A stretch of 64,000 bases of DNA. It comes from Mesorhizobium sp. WSM3626. Lineage in GTDB: Bacteria > Pseudomonadota > Alphaproteobacteria > Rhizobiales > Rhizobiaceae. The stretch's first letter is position 1; each line of letters begins with the position of its first letter. The translations under genes were made by a program, and so were the position numbers. The notes under the pieces are model-generated. The model had not been told where the DNA came from, made no database searches, and worked only from the letters and a program-made list of their open reading frames with translations. Where the stretch lies: positions 1 through 64,000 of the forward strand of contig NZ_AZUY01000016.1 of the NCBI RefSeq assembly GCF_000513935.1, written 5' to 3'. Below, piece after piece: positions 306 to 13,668 of this stretch.

Positions 306-1724
306 CTAGCCAAAGAACAGAAAACCCGCGATCAAAAAGGTCGGGATCAGCACCAGCCCGGACCACAGCATATACCCGAAGAAGCCCGGCATCTTGACGC
401 CGCGATGCCTGGCAATGGCATAGACCATGAAATTGGGTGCGTTGCCGATATAGGTGTTGGCCCCCATGAACACGGCACCCGCCGAGATCGCGGCAAGCGT
501 CGAGGCGAACTCGGTCATCAGGTGCTGAGGGTCGCCGCCCGCCAACTCGAAGAACACCAGATAAGTCGGCGCATTGTCGAGGAAGGACGACAGCGCCCCG
601 GTCAGCCAGAAATAGGCGAGGTCGTTGGGCGTGCCTTGTGCCGACGTGACGAGCGCGACCAGCGGCGCCAGCGCGCCGTCATGGCCGGCCCTCAAAATGG
701 CGACGACCGGAACGATGCAGGTGAAGATGCCGGCGAACAATTTGGCCACTTCCGCGATCGGACCCCAGTTGAAGCCGTTCGCTTCGCGGTAGCTCTTATA
801 CGAGAGGGGAAGCGATAGCAGAGCCAGCGCGAGGATGATCGCGTCGCGTATCAGGTTCTGCAACTCGAGACTGACGCCGAACACCAAAAAGCTCACGCCC
901 GGTTTCCAGGCGGCCGACAGCAGGATGGCGCCGATCACACCGGCCAGCAGCGGAAGGTTGGCCAGGCCGCGCAGGCGCACCTTCGTATCCGGGGTCGGAT
1001 CCTTGATCTTCGGCGCGCCGGCCTCGCGCCGGTGCAGGATGAGGTCGATCGCCAGGAACGCCGCCAGCACGACGATGCCGACGAACAGCGTCTCCCGGTA
1101 GAGATTGTTGGTCGTCCAGAAGAAATCGACGCCGCGCAGGAAGCCGACGAACAGCGGCGGGTCGCCGAGCGGCGTCAGCGAGCCGCCAATGTTGGACACC
1201 AGGAAAATGAAGAAGATGACGACATGGGCATTGAAACGCCTGTTGTCGTTGGCGCGCAGGATCGGCCGGATCAGGATCATCGAGGCGCCGGTCGTGCCGA
1301 TCACCGAGGCAAGCAGCGCCCCGACGATCAGCAGTCCGGCATTGACCAGCGGTGTGCCGTGGATATTGCCGGTAAGCAGGATGCCGCCCGAAATCGTGTA
1401 GAGCGCAAACAGCAGGACGATGAACGACATGTATTCGGTGAGCAGCGCGTGCAGCACCGCCTCGGTTGCCGCCGGGGCACCGAAGGCGACCGCGAGCGGC
1501 ACGATCACCAGCGCCGCCCACAAGGCGGTGATCTTGCCGTAGTGGTGTTCCCAGACATGGTGGAACAGCAGGGGACCGGACGCGATCGACAAGAGCAGCC
1601 CGGCAAAAGGCAGCGCCCACCAGAGCGACATCGTGGCGCCAGGCAGGCCGTGTTCTTCAGCCGCGAATGCCGATACCGGAAACAGCATCGCGACGGCGAT
1701 CGCACCGGCCGTCCCGATCGCCAT
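306..1724 (-). CDS. Na+/H+ antiporter, citrate-transporter (CitMHS/NhaD-like) family
   Basis: A polytopic inner-membrane protein of about 472 residues. It has an N-terminal signal-like segment ending PVSAFA and roughly 11-12 hydrophobic helices. Conserved-looking motifs include LVSNIGGSLTPLGDPPLF and LSSFLDNAPTYLVFF, typical of ion-transporter-superfamily sodium:proton antiporters. It probably exchanges Na+ for H+, but the family also contains carboxylate carriers, so the substrate is inferred. I prefer the ATG at 1724, behind an AAGGGGA sequence, to the in-frame GTG at 1751. It lies 34 nt downstream of pncA on the same strand and may be cotranscribed with it. Confidence 0.85.
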   Translation of the reverse strand: MAIGTAGAIAVAMLFPVSAFAAEEHGLPGATMSLWWALPFAGLLLSIASGPLLFHHVWEHHYGKITALWAALVIVPLAVAFGAPAATEAVLHALLTEYMSFIVLLFALYTISGGILLTGNIHGTPLVNAGLLIVGALLASVIGTTGASMILIRPILRANDNRRFNAHVVIFFIFLVSNIGGSLTPLGDPPLFVGFLRGVDFFWTTNNLYRETLFVGIVVLAAFLAIDLILHRREAGAPKIKDPTPDTKVRLRGLANLPLLAGVIGAILLSAAWKPGVSFLVFGVSLELQNLIRDAIILALALLSLPLSYKSYREANGFNWGPIAEVAKLFAGIFTCIVPVVAILRAGHDGALAPLVALVTSAQGTPNDLAYFWLTGALSSFLDNAPTYLVFFELAGGDPQHLMTEFASTLAAISAGAVFMGANTYIGNAPNFMVYAIARHRGVKMPGFFGYMLWSGLVLIPTFLIAGFLFFG

Positions 1725-1758
1725 CGGCAAAGATCCCCTTCTGCCCCCCACGATGCGG

Positions 1759-2373
1759 TCAGCCGGACGTGTGATCTTCGAGCGTCACGCCGGCATCGCG
1801 CATTTTCGCCAGCATTGTCTCGAGCGACCCGTTGAGATCGATGCCACGGCAGGCATCGAGCCTGACCATGGTTCTAAAACCCTGTTTGACCGCATCCAAC
1901 GCCGAGAAGGCGACACAGAAATCGGTCGCCAGGCCGACCAGGGTCAGCGTGTCGATGCCGCGCTCCCGGAGATAGCCGGCGAGCCCGGTCGGCGTCGTGT
2001 GATCGTTCTCGAAAAAGGCCGAGTAGCTGTCGATGGCGGACCGAAAACCCTTGCGGATGACGAGCTCGGCCTTGGTCCAGGCAAGGCCGGAATGGAAATC
2101 CGAGCCGAGACTGCCCTGAATGCAATGGTCCGGCCACAGCGTCTGCGGACCATATGGCATCTCGATCGTCGAAAAGGGCTGCGCGCCGGGATGGCTGGAG
2201 GCAAAGCTGGAATGGCCGGCGGGGTGCCAGTCCTGCGTCAGCACGACATGGTCGGTTCGCCGGATCATGTCATTGACCAGCGGAACGATCTCGTCGCCGC
2301 CGGCCACCGCCAGCGCGCCGCCCGGGCAAAAATCGTTCTGCAGGTCGATGACAACGAGCGCTTCGTCGGCCAT
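1759..2373 (-). CDS. pncA: Nicotinamidase / pyrazinamidase
   Basis: Cytoplasmic isochorismatase-fold amidohydrolase of 204 residues that converts nicotinamide to nicotinate plus ammonia in the NAD salvage pathway. It shows the nucleophile-side Asp10 in VVIDLQNDFCPGGAL, the metal-binding DWHPAGHSSF segment, the catalytic Lys in VIRKGF, and the nucleophilic Cys153 in GLATDFCV. The length is normal for PncA. An AAGGAAG Shine-Dalgarno precedes the ATG. It is transcribed away from the molybdenum hydroxylase/ring-reductase operon that begins 331 nt away. This matters because its product, nicotinate, is a plausible substrate of that operon. Confidence 0.93.
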   Translation of the reverse strand: MADEALVVIDLQNDFCPGGALAVAGGDEIVPLVNDMIRRTDHVVLTQDWHPAGHSSFASSHPGAQPFSTIEMPYGPQTLWPDHCIQGSLGSDFHSGLAWTKAELVIRKGFRSAIDSYSAFFENDHTTPTGLAGYLRERGIDTLTLVGLATDFCVAFSALDAVKQGFRTMVRLDACRGIDLNGSLETMLAKMRDAGVTLEDHTSG

Positions 2374-2550
2374 GGGGCTTCCTTCCTGTCAGGCTAGGGT
2401 CGGGCTCCGAATGAGGGGCTCGGCGAAAGAAAAAGCCGCTGGCGCGACCGGAGGGAGAAACTTGACCAGATGGCGGGCCGCGTCAACCTCCAGCGGCATA
2501 ACAAATGCGTGGCGATGCCAGCCACATGAGTACCGGCGTAAACTCTGGCT

Positions 2551-2578
2551 TTGACAATTTCCGCCGTCTTGATATCAT
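2551..2578 (+). promoter_or_regulatory. Sigma-70-like promoter of the hydroxylase operon
   Basis: TTGACA (2551-2556), 16 nt, then TATCAT (2573-2578) form a strong-looking promoter in the 331-nt gap between pncA and the hydroxylase operon. It points toward the operon, and transcription would start near 2585. The rest of the gap (2374-2704) holds the inverted repeat and tandem repeat listed separately; I see no gene in it. Confidence 0.5.
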
Positions 2579-2594
2579 TTGCATACGAATGAAT

Positions 2595-2615
2595 TTGCCG
2601 GATTGAAACCGGCAA
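2595..2615. promoter_or_regulatory. Inverted repeat just downstream of the operon promoter, candidate MarR operator
   Basis: TTGCCGG and CCGGCAA form perfect 7-bp arms around a 7-nt spacer, starting about 17 nt after the -10 element. The position would block RNA polymerase. The MarR gene at the end of this operon is the obvious candidate ligand. It could equally fold as an RNA stem-loop in the leader. Confidence 0.4.
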
Positions 2616-2664
2616 GATATCCCCGAGGGTAAGCGCCTTGGGAGGGCCGGTTTCCGGGAAAGCC

Positions 2665-2698
2665 CCATCTTGTTGGGAAGGGCCATCTTGTTGGAAGG
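2665..2698 (+). repeat. Tandem duplication of the ribosome-binding region
   Basis: CCATCTTGTTGGGAAGG (2665-2681) is followed directly by CCATCTTGTTGGAAGG (2683-2698), differing by one G. The second copy supplies the GGAAGG Shine-Dalgarno six bases before the GTG start at 2705. The first copy is therefore a spare Shine-Dalgarno just upstream. Confidence 0.6.
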
Positions 2699-2704
2699 CA
2701 AAAA

Positions 2705-3559
2705 GTGATCCGTTACGTGAAACCCACCACGGTCGACGAGGCGCTCGCGCTGCTTGGCGGGGGCGCCTGGCGTATCCTTGCGGGCGGCACGGATTTCTTT
2801 CCGGCGCAAGGCAGCAAGCCGTTTCGCGACAATGTGCTCGATATCAACGGCCTGACGGCGCTGCGCGGCATCACCGAGACCGGCAGTCACTGGATTATCG
2901 GCGCGCGCGCGACCTGGACCGACATCATCCGCCATCCCTTGCACCCGGCCTTCGATGCGCTGAAACAGGCCGCGCGCGAGGTCGGCTCGGCGCAGATCCA
3001 GAACGTTGCCTCGGTCGCCGGCAATCTCTGCAACGCTTCGCCGGCCGCCGACGGCGTGCCGGGGCTGCTCGTGCTCGACGCCGAGGTCGAGCTGCGCTCG
3101 GCGGCGGCGACGCGCCATCTGCCCTTGTCGGAGTTCATCCTGGGCAACCGCAGTACGGCCTTGCGGCCTGGCGAGATGGTGACGGCCATCCGCGTGCCGA
3201 AACCCACCGGCACATCGGCCTTCGTCAAGCTTGGCGCCCGGCGCTATCTCGTCATCTCCATCGCCATGGTGGCGGTGCGTCTGGTTGTCGAGAATGCCAC
3301 TGTCGCGGATGCGGCCGTCGCCGTCGGCTCCTGTTCCGCCGTTGCCAGGCGGCTTGCCGGTATCGAGGCGGCGTTGCGCGGGCTTCCCCTGGACGCCGGG
3401 CTTGTTGCCGCGGTCCGTTCGGCGCCGATGGCTGAGCTGTCGCCGATCGCCGATGTGCGCGGCAGCGCCGAATACAGGCTGGACGCGGTGCGCGAGATCG
3501 TTGCCCGCGCCGTGCTCGAGGCCGCTGGAAAGCCGGCAGGCGACAAGGTGGCCGCATGA
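2705..3559 (+). CDS. Molybdenum hydroxylase FAD-binding subunit (CoxM/XdhB-like)
   Basis: A 284-residue medium subunit of the xanthine dehydrogenase/CO dehydrogenase family. It carries electrons from the Fe-S clusters of its partner to NAD or another acceptor through FAD. FAD-binding motifs are visible: ILAGGTDFFP near residue 27 and a NVASVAGNLCNASPAADG segment near residue 100, matching the family's AGGTDL and TIGGN-type loops. The start is GTG with GGAAGG six bases upstream. The last four bases overlap the next gene (ATGA), implying translational coupling. The substrate cannot be read from this subunit. Confidence 0.9.
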   Translation: MIRYVKPTTVDEALALLGGGAWRILAGGTDFFPAQGSKPFRDNVLDINGLTALRGITETGSHWIIGARATWTDIIRHPLHPAFDALKQAAREVGSAQIQNVASVAGNLCNASPAADGVPGLLVLDAEVELRSAAATRHLPLSEFILGNRSTALRPGEMVTAIRVPKPTGTSAFVKLGARRYLVISIAMVAVRLVVENATVADAAVAVGSCSAVARRLAGIEAALRGLPLDAGLVAAVRSAPMAELSPIADVRGSAEYRLDAVREIVARAVLEAAGKPAGDKVAA

Positions 3560-6309
3560 GCATGGATCGCGCCGATATCGCCTTCGCGGTCAATGGCGCC
3601 GCCGTCTCGGTCAACGTGCCGCCGCTGCGCCGGCTGTCCTCGGTGCTGCGTGACGAATTGCGACTGACGGGAACAAAGGTCGGCTGCGACGCCGGCGACT
3701 GCGGCGCCTGCACGGTGCTGGTCGACGGCGACCCTGTCTGCGCCTGCCTGATGCCGGCGGCCTCCGCTGCCGGCACCGGGGTGACAACGGTCGAGGGCCT
3801 CGCCAATGGCCGGCTGTCGGCTCTGCAAGCCTCGTTCCTGGCGCATGGCGCCGCGCAATGCGGCATCTGCACGCCGGCACTGCTGGTCGCGGCAACCGCG
3901 CTGCTGGACACGAAACCCAGGCCGACCGAGACCGAGGTGCAGGATGCGCTGGGCGGGATCCTCTGCCGCTGCACCGGCTACCGGAAGATCATCGCGGCGG
4001 TGATGGAGGCTTCTCTCCAGGCCGCGAGCCTGGATTTCCGTCTGCCTCGGTCCGGCCACGCCATCGGCGCGTCACCGGTCAGGCTCGACGGTGTGCCAAA
4101 AGTGACCGGGGCCGAGAAATTCGGTGGCGATTCTTTCCCGGTCGATGCGCTTGCCGTGCTGGTGATCCGCTCGCCGCATTATCATGCCGGCTTCGCCTTC
4201 GGCGACATCGATGGCTGGGCAAGCCGCCATCCCGGTATTGCGGGCGTCTTCACGGCCGCCGATATCCCGGGCAAGAACTGCTTTGGCGTTATCGGCCCGT
4301 TCGCCGACCAGCCGGCGCTGGCCGAGGGCGTTGCCCGGCTTCGCGGCGAGGCGGTCGCCCTGGTCGCCGGCGAGCGCGAGGCGATGCTCGATCTCGATCT
4401 GTCGGATTTCCCTGTCCGCTGGACCGAGCTGCCACATGTTCTCCAGCCTTGCGACGCGCAGGCCGCAGGTGCGGCGCTGATCCACGAAAGCCGCCCGGCC
4501 AATTTGTTGACCAAGGGCTTCGTCGAACGCGGCGATCCCGAGTTAGCACTTGCCAGTGCGGCCTTCACCGCGAGCGGCACGATCGACACCTCCTATGTCG
4601 AGCACGCCTATATCGAACCGGAAGCCGGCTATGCCTATCTCGACGGCGACACGCTGGTCGTCGTCGCCTGCACACAGGCGCCCTATATGGACCGCGACGA
4701 GACGGCGAAGGTGCTTGGCCTTGCCGTCGACAAGGTGCGCATCGTGCCGACCGCGACCGGCGGCGGCTTTGGCTCCAAGCTCGACGTTTCCCTGCAGCCT
4801 CTCATCGGCCTTGTGGCGCTGAAGACCGGGCGGGCGGCGGCGCTCGCCTACACCCGCAACGAATCCATGATGTCGACCACCAAGCGCCATCCGGCGCGGA
4901 TGAAGGCCACCATCGGCGCCGACGCCCACGGCTACGTCACCGGCATGGTCTTCGAAGGCGATTTCAACACCGGTGCCTATGCCAGCTGGGGGCCAACGGT
5001 CGCCAACCGCGTGCCGGTGCACGCCTCCGGCCCCTATGCGACGCCGAACTACCGCGCCGAGGGCCGCGCAATCCACACCCATGGCCCGATTGCCGGGGCC
5101 TTCCGTGGCTTCGGCGTGCCGCAGGCGACGATCATGCAAGAGACGCTGTATGACGAACTCGCCGGCAAGCTCGGCATGGACCGGCTCGACTTTCGCCTGA
5201 AGAACTGTCTTCGGAACGGCTCCGAAACGGTTACCGGGCAGCTTCTGGAGACTGGCGTCGGCATTGCCGAATGCCTTCAAGCGCTGCGGCCGCATTGGGC
5301 GCGGGCGACGGCCGATGCGGATGCTTTCAACAGTGCCGGTGTCGATAGAAAGCGTGGCGTCGGCATCGCCTCGTGCTGGTATGGCTGCGGCAACACATCA
5401 CTGCCCAACCCGTCGACCATCCGGGTCGGTATCGCGGCTGAGGGCGCGGTCATCCTGCACCAGGGCGCGGTCGATATCGGCCAGGGCTCCAACACCGTCA
5501 TCACGCAGATTTGCGCCGACGCGCTCGGCCTGCCTCTGGAAAAATTCCAGTTGAAGAGCGCCGATACGGCGATCAGCCCCGACGCCGGCAAGACTTCGGC
5601 CTCGCGACAGACTTTCGTGACCGGCAAGGCGGCCGAGAAGGCGGGCCGCGCCCTGCGTGAAACAATCCTGCGCTTTGCCAATGTCTCGGACAAGGCTTCC
5701 CTTCAACTGGATGGCCCGGCGATCGTTATCCGTGAAGGCGAGGCGACGCGCCGTATTGATCTTGCCTCGCTCGAAATGGACGCCGACGACTTCGTCTTCC
5801 GCGCCGAGGAGACCTATGACCCGCCAACGCTGCCGCTCGATGCCAAGGGGCAGGGCAAGCCCTATGCGGTCTATGGCTATGGCGCGCAGATTGCCGAACT
5901 CGAGGTCGACCTGAAGCTCGGCACGGTCAAGCTGATCAGGATCATCGCCGCGCATGACGTCGGCAAGGCGATCAATCCGCTGCTGGTCGAGGGCCAGATC
6001 GAAGGCGGCATCGCGCAAGGCATAGGCATGGCGTTGATGGAAGAATACATACCCGGCCGCACCGAGAACCTGCACGACTATCTCATCCCGACCATTGGCG
6101 ATGTGCCCCCGATAGAGACCATCCTTATCGAGGTCCCCGATCCTGAAGGGCCATTCGGCGCCAAGGGCCTGGGCGAGCACGTGCTGATCCCGACGGCGCC
6201 GGCGATCCTCAACGCCATCCGTCACGCCACCGGCGTGCCCGTCACCAAGGTGCCGGCAACGCCGAGCCGCATCCTGGCGGCCATCCGCGAGAAGGAGGCA
6301 CGCACATGA
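3556..6309 (+). CDS. Molybdenum hydroxylase, fused 2Fe-2S and molybdopterin subunits
   Basis: The 917-residue protein joins two subunits that are often separate. Residues 1-160 carry two [2Fe-2S] clusters: Cys44, 49, 52 and 64, then Cys102, 105, 137 and 139 (CGIC and CRCTGYRKI). The rest is the aldehyde oxidase/xanthine dehydrogenase molybdopterin domain with GGGFGSK, GAFRGFG, DIGQGSNT and the catalytic-type Glu874 in GAKGLGE. Such enzymes hydroxylate N-heterocycles or aldehydes with water as oxygen source. With the FAD subunit upstream this forms a complete enzyme. The following reductase gene suggests a nicotinate-like heterocycle, but that is inference; isoquinoline- or purine-type substrates are possible. 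Confidence 0.9.
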   Translation: MSMDRADIAFAVNGAAVSVNVPPLRRLSSVLRDELRLTGTKVGCDAGDCGACTVLVDGDPVCACLMPAASAAGTGVTTVEGLANGRLSALQASFLAHGAAQCGICTPALLVAATALLDTKPRPTETEVQDALGGILCRCTGYRKIIAAVMEASLQAASLDFRLPRSGHAIGASPVRLDGVPKVTGAEKFGGDSFPVDALAVLVIRSPHYHAGFAFGDIDGWASRHPGIAGVFTAADIPGKNCFGVIGPFADQPALAEGVARLRGEAVALVAGEREAMLDLDLSDFPVRWTELPHVLQPCDAQAAGAALIHESRPANLLTKGFVERGDPELALASAAFTASGTIDTSYVEHAYIEPEAGYAYLDGDTLVVVACTQAPYMDRDETAKVLGLAVDKVRIVPTATGGGFGSKLDVSLQPLIGLVALKTGRAAALAYTRNESMMSTTKRHPARMKATIGADAHGYVTGMVFEGDFNTGAYASWGPTVANRVPVHASGPYATPNYRAEGRAIHTHGPIAGAFRGFGVPQATIMQETLYDELAGKLGMDRLDFRLKNCLRNGSETVTGQLLETGVGIAECLQALRPHWARATADADAFNSAGVDRKRGVGIASCWYGCGNTSLPNPSTIRVGIAAEGAVILHQGAVDIGQGSNTVITQICADALGLPLEKFQLKSADTAISPDAGKTSASRQTFVTGKAAEKAGRALRETILRFANVSDKASLQLDGPAIVIREGEATRRIDLASLEMDADDFVFRAEETYDPPTLPLDAKGQGKPYAVYGYGAQIAELEVDLKLGTVKLIRIIAAHDVGKAINPLLVEGQIEGGIAQGIGMALMEEYIPGRTENLHDYLIPTIGDVPPIETILIEVPDPEGPFGAKGLGEHVLIPTAPAILNAIRHATGVPVTKVPATPSRILAAIREKEART

Positions 6310-7841
6310 GCGAGCTTGCCGAACGCTTCGAAACCCATGATCCCGGCGAGAAGCTGGTGGCGGAAAAGATCCGCTGCGATGCCTGTCCCGTCATGTGCTA
6401 CATCGCTGACGGCCGCACCGGCGCCTGCGATCGCTATGGCAATGTCGCGGGCCGGATCGTGCGCATGGACCCGCTGACCATCCTGGACCATGCGGCCGAG
6501 ACCGGCGCCGCCATGGTGCCCTTTGTCGCCGAGGGCGAGCAGTGGGATGGCGAGCTGGTCAACACCGGCCGCCGCTTCGTCACGGCAATCGGCGCCGGCA
6601 CCACCTATCCCGACTACAAGCCCGCTCCCTTCATCGTCAGCCAGGAAGTCGAGGGCGTCGATCTCGTCACCGTGGTCACCGAGGGCATCTTCTCCTATTG
6701 CGGCGTCAAGGTGAAGATCGACACCGACCGCCATATCGGACCCGAAACGGCTATTGTGCGGGCCGAGGGTGAGGCGATCGGCCATGTCACGACGGGAGAA
6801 TACGGCTCGCAGATGCTGTCGCTGGGCGGCGTGCATCATCTGACCGGCGGCTCCAAGGCGGAAGGCCGCGCTACCTGCGACGCGCTGCTCAATCTGTGCA
6901 ACCGCAAACCGGTGGAGCTCAGCATAGACGGCGGCGCCACGGTCGTTGTCGAAGCGGGCAAACCGCCCGTCATCGACGGCAAGCAGGAACATCGCATGCG
7001 CGTCGGCTGCGGCTCGGCGACCATCGGCATGTTCGCCACGCAATGGCGCGGGCTGGTCGACGAGGTCGTGGTGGTCGACGACCACATCACCGGCGTCGTC
7101 TCCGAACACCAGGCCGGCAAGGTGCTGGGCTGGCAGGATACCGGCATCAAGATCATCGGCCGCCGCTCGACACCGGGCCGCTATTTCAAGGTCTCGGAGC
7201 CAGGCCTAGGCTGGGGCGGCACCAGCATTTCCGATCCGCTGTCGATCCTCGGCGAGTGGAATGCCAAGAAGGGCGCGCGCCCGGGCCTGTCGCTGCTGAT
7301 GGTTTCGACCACCGGCGAGCAGTTCGCCTATTACGAGCTCGACGACGAGCTGAAACCGGTGCAGAAGCCGTTTCCCGATCGGCTGCGGAAATCGGTCAAC
7401 CTGATCGAGGACAATTGCGAGCCGGCCTTGTGCACCGTGCTGTTCATTGGCGGCGCCGGTGGCTCGCTGCGTGCCGGCGTCACCGAAAACCCGGTCAATC
7501 TCACCCGCTCCGTGCAAGGCCTGAAAACTTATGTCACCGTGGGCGGCGCGCCGGTCTATGTCTGGCCGGGCGGCGGCATCACGCTGATGGTCGATGTCAC
7601 CAGGGTTCCGGAAGGCGCCTTCGGCTATGTGCCGACGCCGGCGCTGGTGGCGCCGATCGAATTCACCCTGCGTCGCGACGATTACGTCAGGCTCGGCGGC
7701 TACGAGGCGGAGATACGCAGCGTCGCGGACATCGTCGCCAAGGGCGGCGAGTATCTCAATCCCCGGCGCGGCACGGGTGCTGCAACCCAAAATCCATGGC
7801 CGCCACTGGCGCAGTTGCGCCGTGCGGGCGGAGCCGGATGA
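6306..7841 (+). CDS. 6-hydroxynicotinate reductase-like Fe-S flavoprotein
   Basis: A 511-residue protein that I assign to the family of the Eubacterium barkeri 6-hydroxynicotinate reductase. That enzyme reduces the ring to 1,4,5,6-tetrahydro-6-oxonicotinate and was reported to hold covalent flavin plus several Fe-S clusters. Here an N-terminal cluster motif has Cys24, 27, 31 and 41 (CDACPVMC, then DGRTGAC). Further Cys occur in FSYCGVK, VGCGSAT and NCEPALC. Glycine-rich segments such as FIGGAGGSLRAGV and VWPGGGITLM follow. It overlaps both neighbours by 4 nt. The aerobic-type alphaproteobacterial version is uncharacterised as far as I know, so the substrate remains open. Confidence 0.75.
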   Translation: MSELAERFETHDPGEKLVAEKIRCDACPVMCYIADGRTGACDRYGNVAGRIVRMDPLTILDHAAETGAAMVPFVAEGEQWDGELVNTGRRFVTAIGAGTTYPDYKPAPFIVSQEVEGVDLVTVVTEGIFSYCGVKVKIDTDRHIGPETAIVRAEGEAIGHVTTGEYGSQMLSLGGVHHLTGGSKAEGRATCDALLNLCNRKPVELSIDGGATVVVEAGKPPVIDGKQEHRMRVGCGSATIGMFATQWRGLVDEVVVVDDHITGVVSEHQAGKVLGWQDTGIKIIGRRSTPGRYFKVSEPGLGWGGTSISDPLSILGEWNAKKGARPGLSLLMVSTTGEQFAYYELDDELKPVQKPFPDRLRKSVNLIEDNCEPALCTVLFIGGAGGSLRAGVTENPVNLTRSVQGLKTYVTVGGAPVYVWPGGGITLMVDVTRVPEGAFGYVPTPALVAPIEFTLRRDDYVRLGGYEAEIRSVADIVAKGGEYLNPRRGTGAATQNPWPPLAQLRRAGGAG

Positions 7842-8725
7842 TGGAAGGCCCGCAAGCGCATTGGCTGCAGGACGGCAAGCGGCTGCATCTCAACCATGGG
7901 CCGATCGACCTGATCGTCGAGGCCTTCGGCGAGGCCGACGAGTGTCGCGCCGCCTATGCCCAGGCCGTCGCGCGTTTCCAGACGATCCTGATCGAGTTGG
8001 TCGAGGAGCTTCCCGAACTGCGGCTCCCCGCATTTTTCCTGGCGCCGCGCGCCTTCGCCGGCCCGACGGCGCGCCGCATGGAAGCAGCCGTCATGCCCCT
8101 GGCGGAATGCTTCATCACACCGATGGCCGCCGTTGCCGGATCGGTAGCCGACGAAATGATCGCCGCGCTGCTTGCAGGCCGCAAGCTCGACCGGGCCTAT
8201 GTCAACAATGGCGGCGACAGCGCCCTCCATCTCGACAAGGGCACGTCGATTGGCTTGGCGGTCGCCGGCACCGGCAACGGCATGGCCGACCGGATCACGA
8301 TCCGCGCGCAAGATGGCGTGCGTGGTGTCGCAACAAGCGGCTGGCGTGGCCGCTCCTTCTCGCTTGGCATTGCCGATGCCGTCACCGTGCTCGCGCGAAC
8401 CAGCGCCGAGGCCGACGCGGCGGCGACGCTCATCGCCAACGCGGTGGACCTGCCCGGCAATGCCGCCATCAGGCGCATCCCCGCACGCGAGCTGTCGCCC
8501 GACAGCGATCTTGGCGCGCGGCTGGTGACACAAGGCGTCGGCACGCTTGCACCTGATGAGGTGGCGCGGGCGCTGGACAATGGTCTTGCCGTCGCTGAAG
8601 ATTTTCGCCGGCGCGGCCTGATTGCCGCATCGGCGCTGTTTCTTGGCGGGGAAGCCCGTATCAGCGGCTCCGTTGCACTGGCCGCGTCCAACAAGCATGA
8701 ACCGGAGGAAGTTGCCCATGCCTGA
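7838..8725 (+). CDS. UPF0280 family protein (ApbE-like fold)
   Basis: 295 residues, starting at the ATG that overlaps the reductase stop (ATGATG); a second ATG follows at once. UPF0280 proteins are structurally related to ApbE, the enzyme that attaches FMN covalently to target proteins. Matching features here are TPMAAVAGSVADEM near residue 90, a YVNNGGDSAL motif near residue 125 like ApbE's NxGGD, and GVATSGWRGRSFSLGIADAV near residue 165 like its late SG...HI(I/L)D region. Next to a reductase family known for covalent flavin, a flavin-transferase role is an attractive inference, not shown. The codon use is unremarkable. Confidence 0.8.
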   Translation: MMEGPQAHWLQDGKRLHLNHGPIDLIVEAFGEADECRAAYAQAVARFQTILIELVEELPELRLPAFFLAPRAFAGPTARRMEAAVMPLAECFITPMAAVAGSVADEMIAALLAGRKLDRAYVNNGGDSALHLDKGTSIGLAVAGTGNGMADRITIRAQDGVRGVATSGWRGRSFSLGIADAVTVLARTSAEADAAATLIANAVDLPGNAAIRRIPARELSPDSDLGARLVTQGVGTLAPDEVARALDNGLAVAEDFRRRGLIAASALFLGGEARISGSVALAASNKHEPEEVAHA

Positions 8726-9302
8726 ATTTCCAATCCGCAAGATCGCAGTGCTGAACGAAGAGATCTTTCACGAAGGCGGGCCAGTCGCAGAAGTGCCGCG
8801 CCGGCGTGCCGCCGCCATGGCCGTGGTCAGGAACCCGTTCGCGGGGCGCTATGTCGAGGACCTGCAAAGCGCCATGGACGATCTGAAGCCGCTCGGCCTG
8901 CTGCTCGCCGACCGGCTGATCGCCGCACTCGGCGGCGACATCAAACAGATTGACGGTTACGGCAAGGGCGCCATCGTCGGCACGGCTGGCGAACTGGAAC
9001 ATGGTGCGCTGTGGCACGTGCCGGGCGGCTACGCGATGCGCGATCGGCTGGGCGATGCCAAGGCGATCGTGCCCTCGGCCAAGAAGGTCGGCGCCTTCGG
9101 CTCAAAGCTCGACGTGCCGCTCGGCCATATCAACGCCGCCTATGTGCGGAGCCATTTCGACGCCATGGAAGTCGGCATCAGCGATGGCCCGCGTCCTGAC
9201 GAGATCCTGTTCTGCCTCGCCATGACCTGCGGCCCTCGCGTCCATAACCGCATGGGTGGCCTCGCGGCGGACGACATAAAAGCCTGGGACGGGCTGCGGT
9301 GA
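8718..9302 (+). CDS. DUF1185 ('amino acid synthesis') family protein
   Basis: 194 residues in the DUF1185 family, whose function is unknown to me; the 'amino acid synthesis' label is historical. Notable segments are GYGKGAIVGTAGELEHGALWH near residue 77, VPSAKKVGAFGSKLDVPLGH near residue 117 and DEILFCLAMTCGPRVHNRMG near the C-terminus. No signal peptide or membrane helix is visible. The start ATG overlaps the end of the UPF0280 gene by 8 nt, and its stop overlaps the MarR start, so it is fixed inside the operon. It could be a hydrolase or isomerase of the same pathway, but nothing in the sequence decides this. Confidence 0.8.
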   Translation: MPEFPIRKIAVLNEEIFHEGGPVAEVPRRRAAAMAVVRNPFAGRYVEDLQSAMDDLKPLGLLLADRLIAALGGDIKQIDGYGKGAIVGTAGELEHGALWHVPGGYAMRDRLGDAKAIVPSAKKVGAFGSKLDVPLGHINAAYVRSHFDAMEVGISDGPRPDEILFCLAMTCGPRVHNRMGGLAADDIKAWDGLR

Positions 9303-9760
9303 GCGGCGGGGACAACCTGCTCAAGCTGGTCGAGGCCGAAGACGCCGACGACCACGACTACTTGCTGCAGGAACAGGTCGGCTTCATCCTGCGCAAGGCG
9401 CACCAGCGCCATGTCTCGATCTTCGCCGCCCGTATCGCCGATCTGACGCCGCCGCAATTCGCGGCCCTGGCCAAGCTGCGCGATGTCGGCGAGACCTCGC
9501 AGAACCAGCTCGGCACGCTGATCGCCATGGATGCGGCGACGGTGAAGGGCGTCATCGACCGGCTGAAGGCGCGGGGCCTTGTCGAGCTTTCCAGGCATGA
9601 AGTCGACAAAAGGCGGCTGCTGGTCAACCTGACGGCCGAGGGCCGCGACGCGATCGAGCGCCTGATCCCGCTTGCAAGGGAGATCACGCAGGAAACGCTG
9701 GCGCCGCTCACGGCCAAGGAGGCCGCCACTTTCATGAAGCTGCTGGCGAAGCTGGCGTAG
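9299..9760 (+). CDS. MarR family transcriptional regulator
   Basis: 153 residues with a winged-helix MarR core: DLTPPQFAALAKLRDVGETS leads into the recognition helix around NQLGTLIAMDAATVKGVIDRL, and the wing follows in RHEVDKRRLLVNLTAEG. Start is GTG overlapping the DUF1185 stop by 4 nt. As the last gene of the heterocycle operon it probably represses the operon and responds to a pathway aromatic. The inverted repeat at 2595-2615 is a candidate site. Confidence 0.9.
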   Translation: MSGGDNLLKLVEAEDADDHDYLLQEQVGFILRKAHQRHVSIFAARIADLTPPQFAALAKLRDVGETSQNQLGTLIAMDAATVKGVIDRLKARGLVELSRHEVDKRRLLVNLTAEGRDAIERLIPLAREITQETLAPLTAKEAATFMKLLAKLA

Positions 9761-9769
9761 ATTGATTCC

Positions 9770-9792
9770 GCCGGGCGCCGTCAGCGCCCGGC
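9770..9792. terminator. Bidirectional terminator-like hairpin
   Basis: GCCGGGCGC and GCGCCCGGC form a perfect 9-bp GC-rich stem around a 5-nt loop, between the convergent MarR and sugar-binding-protein genes. No clear U-tract follows on either side, so termination efficiency is uncertain. Confidence 0.55.
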
Positions 9793-9806
9793 AGAAGAGC
9801 TTCGCC

Positions 9807-10775
9807 TCAGAGGCCGTTGTCCTTCAGCACCTGGGCGGCGTTTTCCTTGGTGATCTTCTCCGTCGGCAAGGTGATGGTCTTTTCCACCTTCTCGCCCTTG
9901 AGGAACTTGATCGCCTGGCGCAAGCCTTCGGCACCTGGGGTGACATAGGTGAACGTCGCCGTCAGCTCACCCTTGTTCACCATTTGCACGCCTTCGTTGG
10001 GCAGGCCATCGATGCCGATGAACTTGATGTCCTTCTCGCGGCCGACATCCTTGGCGGCGAGATAGGCGCCGTAGGCCATTGGGTCGTTATGGCCGTAGAC
10101 GAGATCGATCTTCTCGTTGGTCTTCAGCGCGTTGGCCATCAAATTGTAGGCCTGGTCCTGCTTCCAGTCGCCCGACTGCTGGTCGAGCAGATATTTGATG
10201 CCCGGCTCTTTGTCGGTGAATTCATGGAAGCCGTCATGACGGTCATGCGCCGGCTGGGTGCCCATGCCGCCCCAGATCTCGACCACATTGCCTGCCGCCT
10301 TGCCCTTGCCGCCGAGCAGTTCGACGGCATATTCACCGGCCGCACGGCCGATCAGCTTGTTGTCACCGCCGACGAACTGCGTGTAGTCCTTGGTGTCGAC
10401 ATTGCGGTCGAGCACGAAGACCGGGATCTTGGCGTCGATCGCCTGCTGCACGACGCCGGTCAGGCCAGCCGATTCCTTCGGCGATACCAGCAGCGCGTCG
10501 ACCTCCTGGCGGATCAGGTTCTCGACGTCGGCGACCTGCTTCTCGGTCTTGTCCTCGCCATCGGTGATGATCAGCTCGACCTCCGGATGCTTGGCGGCCT
10601 CGGCAATGATGTCCTTGTTGAACTGGGCGCGCCAGGGCTCGATGGTGGTCACCTGCGAGAAGCCGATCTTCCACTTCTTATCCTGGGCGAAGGCATGGCC
10701 GGTGGAGAGCAGTGCCGTGGTGGTCAGCAATGCCGCGCCGAGTGCGGCAAGCTTCAGCATGTCACGTCGTTTCAT
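9807..10775 (-). CDS. Sugar ABC transporter substrate-binding protein (ribose/RbsB type)
   Basis: 322 residues with an N-terminal export signal ending GHAFA before QDKKW. KRRDMLKL is Tat-like but may be Sec. The mature part is a periplasmic-binding-protein type 1 (Peripla_BP_4) domain: LLVSPKESAGL, PVFVLDRNVDT, VEIWGGMGTQPAHDRHDGF and VYGHNDPMAYGAYLAAKD are family landmarks around the sugar cleft. It overlaps the permease stop by 4 nt and is the last gene of the operon, behind AGGAAACAAG. A pentose, hexose or polyol ligand is likely; which one cannot be told. Confidence 0.9.
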   Translation of the reverse strand: MKRRDMLKLAALGAALLTTTALLSTGHAFAQDKKWKIGFSQVTTIEPWRAQFNKDIIAEAAKHPEVELIITDGEDKTEKQVADVENLIRQEVDALLVSPKESAGLTGVVQQAIDAKIPVFVLDRNVDTKDYTQFVGGDNKLIGRAAGEYAVELLGGKGKAAGNVVEIWGGMGTQPAHDRHDGFHEFTDKEPGIKYLLDQQSGDWKQDQAYNLMANALKTNEKIDLVYGHNDPMAYGAYLAAKDVGREKDIKFIGIDGLPNEGVQMVNKGELTATFTYVTPGAEGLRQAIKFLKGEKVEKTITLPTEKITKENAAQVLKDNGL

Positions 10776-12085
10776 TTCTTGTTTCCTCCGAGATTGAGAG
10801 ACGGTGTCTCTTGCGACGGCCGTTTTGCGGCGGCCGTTTCCTTGTGCGCCGCTCCAGGCAGGCGCAGATAGGTCAGCAGATCACCGGCATTGCGCTCCTG
10901 CACGAGCACGGTGCCGATGATGATCATCCCCTTCAGCACCAGCTGAAGGTTCGAATTGATGTTGTGGAGCTGCAATATGTTGGAGAGTAGCCCGAAGATC
11001 AGCACGCCGCAGAAGGTGCCTATCAGGCTGCCGCGCCCGCCCATCAGGCTGGTGCCGCCAATGACCACGGCGGCGATGGCGTCGAGCTCCAGCCCGGCGC
11101 CGGCGTCGGGCTTGCCTTGCCGGTACTGTGCCACGTAGAGCACGGCGGCAATGCCGGCGAGCAGACCTGATATGGCGTAGGTGGCGATCTTGACGCGCCC
11201 GGCGGCGATGCCGGAAAGCCGGGCCGCCTCCTCATTGCCGCCGATGGCATAGACATAGCGGCCGAACGGCGTGAAGCGCAGCACCGCGCCATAGATGACG
11301 ATGGCGCCGAGGAAGAACAGGCCGGGCATAGGGATGACGCCGAACACCAGCGAGCGCAGCAGCTCGAAGTCGGCGGTGGCGTTGGAACCGGTATAGACCG
11401 GCAGCACGGCATTGTTCTGGCCGGCGGTGAGCCGGGCGATGCCGAGCGCCGTCACCATCATCGCCAGCGTGACGATGAAGGGTTGCAGCCGTCCGCCGAC
11501 GATGATGAAACCGTTGATGGCGCCGAACAGCAGGCCGACGCAGGGCGCCACCAGCAGCACGCCGAGAACGCCGAATTTGGGTTCGATCTGCGGCAGCAGG
11601 TACCAGAGCGAAAGGCAGCACAGGACGACGCCGACGATTGCCGGCGTGACCAGGCCGCGAGCGGTGTCCAGCCTGACGTCACGGGCGGAGGCATCCGCGC
11701 CGGCGCGGGATTTCTCCAAATTGAGGAAGATGAAGCGCGTGACGACGATGCCGAGGCACAGCGCAACCAGCGCAACGGTCGGCACGCCCAGCACGACGCC
11801 GGGCGTCACGCCGGGAACCGTCAGCAGCATGGCGCACACCACCGAGCAGATGGCCATCAGCGAGCCGACGGAAAGATCGATGCCGCCGGTGATGATCACC
11901 GCCGTCATGCCGGTCGCGATCAGCCCGGTGGTCGACACCTGGCGCAGCACGTCGAGCAGATTGCCGTAGGAGAGGAAGATGTTGTTGCCCTTGGAACTCA
12001 CGGGCGAGCCGAGAACGCCAATCAGGAAGATGGCGATCAGGCCCCAATAGAGCTTGGTGCGGGACAGGAGTTTCAGTGCGGTCAT
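10772..12085 (-). CDS. Sugar ABC transporter permease (RbsC type)
   Basis: 437 residues, an inner-membrane permease of the BPD_transp_2 family, with about ten hydrophobic helices. The family signature appears in GIDLSVGSLMAICSVV near residue 70 and in the coupling region GGNEEAARLSGI followed by GGTSLMGGRGSLIGTF. It is longer than RbsC (about 320). The extra length includes an insertion of roughly 60 residues after residue 115, with a charged stretch (RAGADASARDVRLDT) before another helix. It overlaps the ATPase gene upstream by 4 nt. Confidence 0.9.
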   Translation of the reverse strand: MTALKLLSRTKLYWGLIAIFLIGVLGSPVSSKGNNIFLSYGNLLDVLRQVSTTGLIATGMTAVIITGGIDLSVGSLMAICSVVCAMLLTVPGVTPGVVLGVPTVALVALCLGIVVTRFIFLNLEKSRAGADASARDVRLDTARGLVTPAIVGVVLCCLSLWYLLPQIEPKFGVLGVLLVAPCVGLLFGAINGFIIVGGRLQPFIVTLAMMVTALGIARLTAGQNNAVLPVYTGSNATADFELLRSLVFGVIPMPGLFFLGAIVIYGAVLRFTPFGRYVYAIGGNEEAARLSGIAAGRVKIATYAISGLLAGIAAVLYVAQYRQGKPDAGAGLELDAIAAVVIGGTSLMGGRGSLIGTFCGVLIFGLLSNILQLHNINSNLQLVLKGMIIIGTVLVQERNAGDLLTYLRLPGAAHKETAAAKRPSQETPSLNLGGNKK

Positions 12086-13668
12086 GCGGCGGGTCTCGAT
12101 AGGGTCCGGCGCGGCGCCGCGAGGCGCATGATGGCCTCCTCGCTCGCCGCGTCACGGGAAAGGATGCCTGTCTGGCGGCCGTCGGCCATCACCAGGATGC
12201 GGTCGGAAAGATGCAGCAATTCCGGCAGCTCGGAGCTGATGACGGCGATGGCGAGGCCATCGCGCGCCAGCCGGAAGATGAGGTCGTAGATCTCGCGCTT
12301 GGCGCCGACATCGATGCCGCGCGTCGGCTCGTCGAGCAACAGCACCCTTGGCCTCGTCGCCAGCCATTTGCCGATGACGACCTTCTGCTGGTTGCCGCCC
12401 GACAGCGTGCCGGCGGGCTGGTCAATATCCCGGCAGCGAATGCCGAGCGCCTTGACCGCCTGCCGCGCCAGCCCCTGTTCGCCGGCCAGCGAACGGATGC
12501 CGAAGCGGGCCAGCGCGCCGACCAGCGGCAGCGCCACATTGTCCGAGATCGAGGCCTGCAGATGCAGGCCTTGCGTCTTGCGGTCCTCGGTGACCAGCGC
12601 GATGCCCAGCCGCCGCGCGTCGCGTGGTGAGCGGATATCCACCGGCTGGCCGTCGAGCCTGATCTCGCCGCCGGCACGGCCATCGCTCGCGCCGAAGATC
12701 GCTTCCATGATCTCGGTGCGGCCGGAGCCCAGCAGGCCGCCAATGCCCAGAATCTCTCCGGCGGCGAGATCGAAGCTGACGCCGCCGATCACCTGCCGCC
12801 AGCCCTGGCGGTCGGGTTTCGACAGCGACAGGTCGCTGACCGAAAGCACGGTCCTGCCGCCGGGATCCCGCTCGTCGTGGGAGGATGCGAGCAGGTCCCG
12901 TCCGACCATCGCCGAAATGATGGCATTCTCGTCGAGCTCGGCCATCGGCTGCGTCAGCACATGGCGTCCATCGCGGAAAACGGTGACGCGGCCGGCCAGA
13001 TGCATGACCTCGTCGATGCGGTGCGAGATGTAGACGATGGCGACGCCGCTATCGGCAAGCTGGCCGATGATGCGGAACAGCCGCTGGCATTCGGCCGGCG
13101 ACAGCGCCGAGGTCGGTTCGTCCATGATCAGCATGCGCGCCGACATCGACAGCGCCTTGGCGATCTCGACCAGTTGCTGTTCGCCGACACGCAAGGCACC
13201 GACGCGTGCGTCCGGATCGAGTTCGATGCCGAGCCGCTGCAGGAGGGCGCTTGCCGCGCGGCTGCTCGCCTTGCGGTCGACGACCAGTCCCGCGATCAGC
13301 TTCTCGCGGCCGAGAAAGATGTTGTCGGCGACGCTCAGCTCCGGCACCAGGTTGAGTTCCTGGTGGATGATGGCAATGCCCGCGTCCTCGGCATCGCGCA
13401 CGCCGGCGAAGCTGACCGGCCGGCCGTCGATACTGACCGTGCCTTCGTAGCCGGTATAGACGCCGGACAGGATCTTCATCAGCGTCGACTTGCCGGCGCC
13501 GTTCTCGCCCATCAAGGCATGGACTTCGCCGCGCCGCAATTCGAAGCCGACATCGACCAGGGCGGCGATGCCGCCAAAACTCTTGGAAATATGCTCGGCA
13601 CTCAGAACGATGTCCGAGCGATCCGACGCCGCACTGCGCGTCGAGGAAAGGGAATTGTTCTGTTCCAT
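12082..13668 (-). CDS. Sugar ABC transporter ATP-binding protein (RbsA type)
   Basis: 528 residues with two tandem ABC domains as usual for carbohydrate transporters. Domain 1 has an intact Walker A (GENGAGKST), signature (LRVGEQQLVEIAKAL) and Walker B (LIMDEPTSAL). Domain 2 has the expected degenerate Walker A (GLLGSGRTE), an LSGGNQQKVVIGKWL signature and LLLDEPTRGID. It powers the neighbouring permease. It is the first gene of the operon and faces the LacI gene; the start is ATG at 13668. Confidence 0.93.
   Translation of the reverse strand: MEQNNSLSSTRSAASDRSDIVLSAEHISKSFGGIAALVDVGFELRRGEVHALMGENGAGKSTLMKILSGVYTGYEGTVSIDGRPVSFAGVRDAEDAGIAIIHQELNLVPELSVADNIFLGREKLIAGLVVDRKASSRAASALLQRLGIELDPDARVGALRVGEQQLVEIAKALSMSARMLIMDEPTSALSPAECQRLFRIIGQLADSGVAIVYISHRIDEVMHLAGRVTVFRDGRHVLTQPMAELDENAIISAMVGRDLLASSHDERDPGGRTVLSVSDLSLSKPDRQGWRQVIGGVSFDLAAGEILGIGGLLGSGRTEIMEAIFGASDGRAGGEIRLDGQPVDIRSPRDARRLGIALVTEDRKTQGLHLQASISDNVALPLVGALARFGIRSLAGEQGLARQAVKALGIRCRDIDQPAGTLSGGNQQKVVIGKWLATRPRVLLLDEPTRGIDVGAKREIYDLIFRLARDGLAIAVISSELPELLHLSDRILVMADGRQTGILSRDAASEEAIMRLAAPRRTLSRPAA

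Follow-up and report, generated by a model that had tools for sequence, protein, structure and literature searches.

Which N-heterocycle does a rhizobium oxidize and then reduce by means of an operon in which a molybdenum hydroxylase is followed by a protein resembling 6-hydroxynicotinate reductase (HNR), and how is the reduced ring opened in a genome where no enamidase (Ena) was found? The operon (2705-9760) lies in the window, by which we mean the whole 64,000-nucleotide stretch of Mesorhizobium sp. WSM3626 analysed here, the start of contig C13 (NZ_AZUY01000016.1) in an assembly of 6.28 Mb and 106 contigs that is rated 100% complete. Judging from gene content and homology, the operon very probably serves to degrade nicotinate (vitamin B3), whose ring would be hydroxylated first and then reduced. 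A fuller reading, which we consider rather probable, is that it encodes the initial steps of nicotinate breakdown by the reductive route in Mesorhizobium, with a HyuA/HyuB pair (HyuAB) serving in place of enamidase and the UPF0280 protein as a flavin factor.

The six genes of the operon overlap, in order along it and as taken from their coordinates, by 4, 4, 4 (or 1), 8 and 4 nt, and a nicotinamidase gene is divergent to them. The arrangement is as follows:

1759-2373, minus strand: pncA, nicotinamidase, which would supply nicotinate (NCBIfam equivalog NF008623, 217.6 bits against a cut-off of 174)
2705-3559, plus strand: FAD subunit of the molybdenum hydroxylase, GTG start (Pfam FAD_binding_5 and CO_deh_flav_C)
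3556-6309, plus strand: fused 2Fe-2S and molybdenum-cofactor (Mo) subunit of the hydroxylase (Pfam Fer2, Fer2_2, MoCoBD_1 and MoCoBD_2)
6306-7841, plus strand: HNR, the name under which plasmid homologues are annotated
7838-8725, plus strand: UPF0280, ApbE-like, presumed HNR maturation factor (NCBIfam NF003322, 395 bits against a cut-off of 290)
8718-9302, plus strand: DUF1185 (AA_synth), presumed accessory protein (Pfam PF06684, E=8.8e-71; PDB 3BYQ and 2QTP)
9299-9760, plus strand: MarR-family regulator, GTG start (Pfam MarR)

An earlier account made from the letters alone (the sequence-only reading) had described six overlapping genes of these families facing a divergent pncA, and coordinates, Pfam and NCBIfam bear that description out. 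By its Pfam domains the hydroxylase is complete; its substrate cannot be read from the sequence.

HNR is a single copy in this genome. It matched no Pfam or NCBIfam family, and a structure predicted for it at low confidence (mean pLDDT 63.9) resembled nothing in the PDB at E<=0.001. Homology alone identifies it as the 6-hydroxynicotinate reductase of the pathway through 1,4,5,6-tetrahydro-6-oxonicotinate (THON). The N-terminal motif CDACPVxC..GAC is present in 120 of 120 HNR rows, and among the matches listed the window protein is up to 97% identical to HNRs of named Mesorhizobium. An alphaproteobacterial sample spread evenly over the class has HNR in 44 of its 289 genomes, and a sample of the order has it in 73 of 297; a scan of named genomes gave at least 593 confirmed HNR stretches, 80 of which were kept for analysis. 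The comparison of gene order proposed in the sequence-only reading showed that the order hydroxylase-HNR-UPF0280-DUF1185 recurs in many genera, including Mesorhizobium, Paracoccaceae, Roseobacter types, SAR116, Kiloniellaceae and others. HNR and UPF0280 stand on the same strand in all 110 loci where both were called, with a median gap of -4 nt and a gap within 30 nt in 88 of them. The gene directly 3' of HNR, in 72 dereplicated loci having a downstream gene under a purpose-built codon-trained gene caller, is UPF0280 in 65, DUF1185 in three and another gene in four. Because HNR and UPF0280 share a strand and mostly lie close together and the order recurs in so many genera, the arrangement is more than chance. 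A separate family of ~370-440 aa, which matches nothing in Pfam or NCBIfam (e.g., L037:12954-14288 and L100:74-1189), is encoded upstream of the gene for a liv-type transporter substrate-binding protein; its cluster is present at 22 of the 78 HNR loci left after dereplication.

Indications of the substrate come from the neighbours of HNR in other genomes. At loci of three genomes from the same taxonomic order as the window genome (L198, L219 and L220), whose HNRs are 70.3-73.3% identical to that of the window, proteins of ~1180 and ~160 aa adjoin HNR. A subunit with molybdenum-cofactor and cytochrome c domains, working with a 2Fe-2S protein, is the architecture of NicAB, the cytochrome c domains belonging to the NicB-type Mo subunit. 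The Pfam scan covered the L220 pair and found Mo-cofactor and cytochrome c domains plus a 2Fe-2S protein; the L198 and L219 pairs are called NicAB-like by size and place. The L220 stretch also holds Ena, an ABC transporter, MarR and a reductase, and no Ena occurs within the fetched stretches of L198 and L219. In addition, pncA lies near HNR in L078, L090, L092, L222 and L230 (by the NCBIfam equivalog); homology adds L087 and L122, and the settings are both HyuAB-type (L092, L222, L230) and Ena-type (L122). Strain SG-6C, which bears an HNR cluster, breaks down both nicotinate and 6-hydroxynicotinate (PMC3511419). NicAB-like linkage, pncA linkage and nicotinate degradation by SG-6C together favour nicotinate as the substrate. 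Oxidation followed by reduction, as the sequence-only reading had it for a nicotinate-like pathway, is thus well supported by these two linkages and by the published clusters, while each individual substrate is one that we infer.

Homarine (N-methylpicolinate) degradation was considered and rejected; searches of open-licence papers turned up no tie between homarine genes and HNR, and the linkage of HNR to pncA and to NicAB-like genes points to nicotinate. Locus L207 was not counted as a NicAB cluster because Pfam gave Lon and Hsp20. A VanA-type Rieske oxygenase (PF19112) lies near HNR in L082, L114, L120, L125, L126, L138, L145, L146, L154, L210 and L227, in clusters with or without Ena, and might take off an N-methyl group, for example that of trigonelline; being near HNR in a minority of loci, it was not retained as a core member.

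The reductive route via THON is stated for Eubacterium barkeri and Azorhizobium, with enamidase as the ring opener (PMC9304392). The absence of an enamidase, noted for the window by the sequence-only reading, extends to the whole genome, where 21 of 21 candidates were scored and the best reached 25% identity (E=1.1e-4). That reading had left open either a different substrate or a pathway whose remainder lies elsewhere; the latter fits better, except that what lies elsewhere is not an enamidase. Contig C41 (L164) encodes HyuB (8292-10025, minus strand), HyuA (10027-12111, minus strand) and a ferredoxin-NADP reductase (12331-13158, plus strand), which are 93, 93 and 95% identical, respectively, to proteins encoded at HNR loci L043 and L047. 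By Pfam, the pair holds the HyuA and HyuB domains of the hydantoinase/oxoprolinase family, and HyuA keeps DVGGT at 21, DMGGT at 296 and GANPGP at 360, which are the ATP motifs described in CapA (PMC8453981). Among NCBIfam models, those of caprolactamase beta and alpha come closest, and as the scores of 504 and 322 bits fall far under the equivalog cut-offs of 1000, the C41 pair is not the same enzyme as the caprolactamase CapAB. A related pair, OplAB, hydrolyses delta-valerolactam using ATP (PMC11033972), and since THON, too, is a six-membered lactam, its ATP-driven opening is plausible by analogy. In the open-licence literature we found no paper joining enamidase, hydantoinase and nicotinate in this way.

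In other clusters the amidohydrolase neighbouring HNR matches the E. barkeri enamidase (PDB 2VUN, E=3.6e-109). A genome-wide survey of the 44 HNR genomes, in which the best six amidohydrolase candidates were scored per genome where more existed, found Ena in 17, HyuA in 26 (the window's included), both in none and neither in one (G226, 70% complete). The identity cut-offs, chosen after seeing the gap, were >=68% for Ena (next <=42%) and >=55% for HyuA (next <=51%), and the 26 HyuA proteins form one close subfamily within the caprolactamase/oxoprolinase family. Across 159 HNR loci, labelled genome-wide for the class sample and by fetched stretch for all others, 57 have HyuAB, 27 have Ena, none has both and 75 have neither. 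HyuA/HyuB adjoins HNR in other clusters, among them those of the window relatives L052, L054, L058 and L071, and the slot after livF of the second transporter type holds DUF1185-Ena in L141, L145, L146 and L154 and HyuA in L134, L143 and L151. On an HNR tree of 69 rows, which took in labelled loci and omitted those with neither opener, the label changes eight times, and branches with good support require at least six of these changes; the sister rows L138 and L149, of the same family, are labelled Ena and HyuA, respectively. We use only this switch count, since an independent-pairs test dropped the neither-label rows (51 of 119 loci after dereplication, 75 of 159 without it) and is therefore near-circular, and the hypergeometric P = 2.6e-11 reported alongside it ignores relatedness. 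Replacement of enamidase by HyuAB thus seems to recur across Alphaproteobacteria. One genome (G082, locus L228) has a strong enamidase, yet no HNR and no UPF0280 match.

The sequence-only reading assigned no role to UPF0280 or DUF1185. By model NF003322, UPF0280 is present in 44 of the 44 HNR genomes among the 289 searched, in 42 of them above the curated cut-off, the proteins of G064 and G087 being fragments on two contigs each; the 245 genomes without HNR gave no strong match and four weak ones (E 4.6e-7 to 6.5e-4). This UPF0280 subfamily therefore travels with HNR in the sample. In one comparison with a profile of 17 ApbE proteins, UPF0280 matched at 92.8% probability (E=4e-7) over 97 columns covering GG(D/E), ATSG and ADAxAT. 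Its residues D193 and T197, aligned with ADAxAT, are invariant in 27 of 27 rows, and the corresponding Asp and Thr are what we take to be the metal ligands of ApbE. PF02424 had no match anywhere in the window genome. The HNR of E. barkeri reportedly holds covalently bound flavin. Coupling to HNR, the ApbE profile match and the reported flavin together suggest that UPF0280 matures HNR, and we put a role as flavin-loading or flavin-attaching factor at about even chances. A full-text search of open-licence papers found no paper on UPF0280.

The alternative that survives best, and to which we allow a sizeable if smaller share of the probability, is that UPF0280 binds flavin as a subunit of HNR or is itself an enzyme for which the HNR product is the substrate, as strict coupling to HNR would suit a subunit as well as a helper. 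Several points speak for it and weigh against a maturation factor. The general-base His named for ApbE (PMC12052999) has no counterpart, no invariant His being present in the 27 UPF0280 rows and none in the profile alignment; and none of 16 and none of 34 HNR rows carries the ApbE target motif D-x-x-[ST]-G-A-[ST], just the short SGAT appearing in 3 of the 34. What argues for maturation over a subunit is the ApbE match itself, set against control profiles of DUF1185 and HNR that reached 1.1% and 0.2%.

Other observations count against nicotinate as the substrate and HyuAB as its ring opener. The window hydroxylase is not NicAB-like, its Mo subunit lacking by Pfam the cytochrome domains that the L220 protein has; pncA lies near HNR in one of 39 class-sample loci, L122 alone; many of the 75 loci with neither opener are Roseobacter-type and labelled by stretch, not genome; the enamidase survey was confined to best candidates where there were many; and HyuAB sits on a different contig from the operon, so that its link to the operon rests on relatives. 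It could accordingly be argued that the operon acts on another N-heterocycle and that HyuAB marks that substrate instead of replacing enamidase on THON, an explanation for which the different type of hydroxylase, the greater frequency of HyuAB-type clusters (26 against 17 of 44) and the hint of other substrates given by the VanA-type oxygenase in some clusters may be cited. We nevertheless think it unlikely, as pncA is found near HNR with both types of ring opener, the opener switches repeatedly on the HNR tree, once between sisters, and annotated nicB and HyuAB occur together within one cluster (L034).

DUF1185 is not essential to the system, since five of the 44 HNR genomes (G066, G184, G196, G233 and G281) show no match to DUF1185 at any locus, and 18 genomes lacking HNR do show one, in one case weak. 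Two DUF1185 genes occur in 15 of the 20 Ena loci listed, and DUF1185 often comes after UPF0280. The structure model (pLDDT 87.3) matches the solved DUF1185 structures 3BYQ and 2QTP and, at Z ~6, chorismate mutase and Rid proteins; this predicted likeness agrees with PMC2954203 and indicates no function. HcdD is a DUF1185-type protein and TgnF of trigonelline degradation is cited as homologous to it (PMC7913881); that work looked for a stimulating effect of HcdD and did not observe one. The window genome has a second DUF1185 gene in another neighbourhood (L168:9297-9884, contig C23), its product ~40% identical to the DUF1185 of HNR clusters. That HyuAB does something else, such as downstream chemistry, and an unrecognised protein, perhaps DUF1185 with its chorismate-mutase/Rid-like predicted fold and its place after UPF0280, opens the reduced ring is very improbable, because a Z of ~6 may reflect just a common arrangement, DUF1185 and HNR each occur without the other, and DUF1185 also stands beside Ena and hence is no replacement for it.

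Under the preferred reading, with HyuAB in place of enamidase, PncA would convert nicotinamide to nicotinate, the FAD/2Fe-2S/Mo hydroxylase would yield 6-hydroxynicotinate, and HNR, probably receiving electrons via the ferredoxin-NADP reductase encoded on C41, would reduce this to THON. The C41 HyuAB would then open the THON lactam at the cost of ATP, and the enamine freed by ring opening would lose ammonia to give 2-formylglutarate. UPF0280 may load or attach the HNR flavin, DUF1185 would be an accessory protein, and MarR is the putative local regulator. Should HyuAB indeed replace enamidase, ring opening costs ATP, and vitamin B3 breakdown may be complete in genomes where it seems to be partial; a testable substrate would be in hand for one clade of the large HyuA/HyuB family, and a function for UPF0280. 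A broader proposition, that more than half of the HNR-bearing Alphaproteobacteria use ATP-dependent HyuAB on the reduced ring and that UPF0280 represents a novel class of cytosolic factors that attach flavin and serve HNR without the ApbE motif, we regard as doubtful and offer tentatively.

Transport genes border this region on both sides. A CitMHS_2 'putative citrate transport' protein (306-1751, minus strand; Pfam E=4.5e-189) adjoins pncA, is also present in related Mesorhizobium loci and might carry a pathway acid. On the other side a sugar-type ABC transporter (9807-13668, minus strand; periplasmic binding protein by Pfam, permease and ATPase from reading the open reading frames) adjoins the operon where some relatives have HyuAB.

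Since hydroxylation and reduction would be alike and an enamidase was sought in vain, the window system appears to be a variant of the known reductive nicotinate pathway, with another ring opener and with UPF0280 as a putative dedicated partner of HNR. The HNR clusters of Azorhizobium caulinodans, Bradyrhizobium japonicum, Rhodopseudomonas palustris and SG-6C are described as a conserved nicotinate cluster (PMC3511419) in which, as in the window, HNR accompanies hydroxylation genes, together with genes for an ABC transporter and for two proteins without known function; we take the latter to be UPF0280 and DUF1185, neither of which the text of the paper names. By that account the cluster covers the first three steps and so includes an enamidase, whereas none was found in the window genome, which has HyuAB instead. 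With the fermentation of E. barkeri (ndh, hnr, ena) the window system would share the scheme of hydroxylation, ring reduction and ring opening; it differs in that no enamidase was found and in a hydroxylase built of an FAD subunit and a fused 2Fe-2S/Mo subunit. From the Pseudomonas nic pathway it is set apart by a Mo subunit without NicB-type cytochrome c domains. UPF0280 departs from the ApbE flavin transferases in the general-base His and the target motif, and shares their three conserved motifs. The C41 pair, finally, although scoring well below the level of CapAB, has in common with CapAB and OplAB the HyuA/HyuB domains and the ATP motifs.

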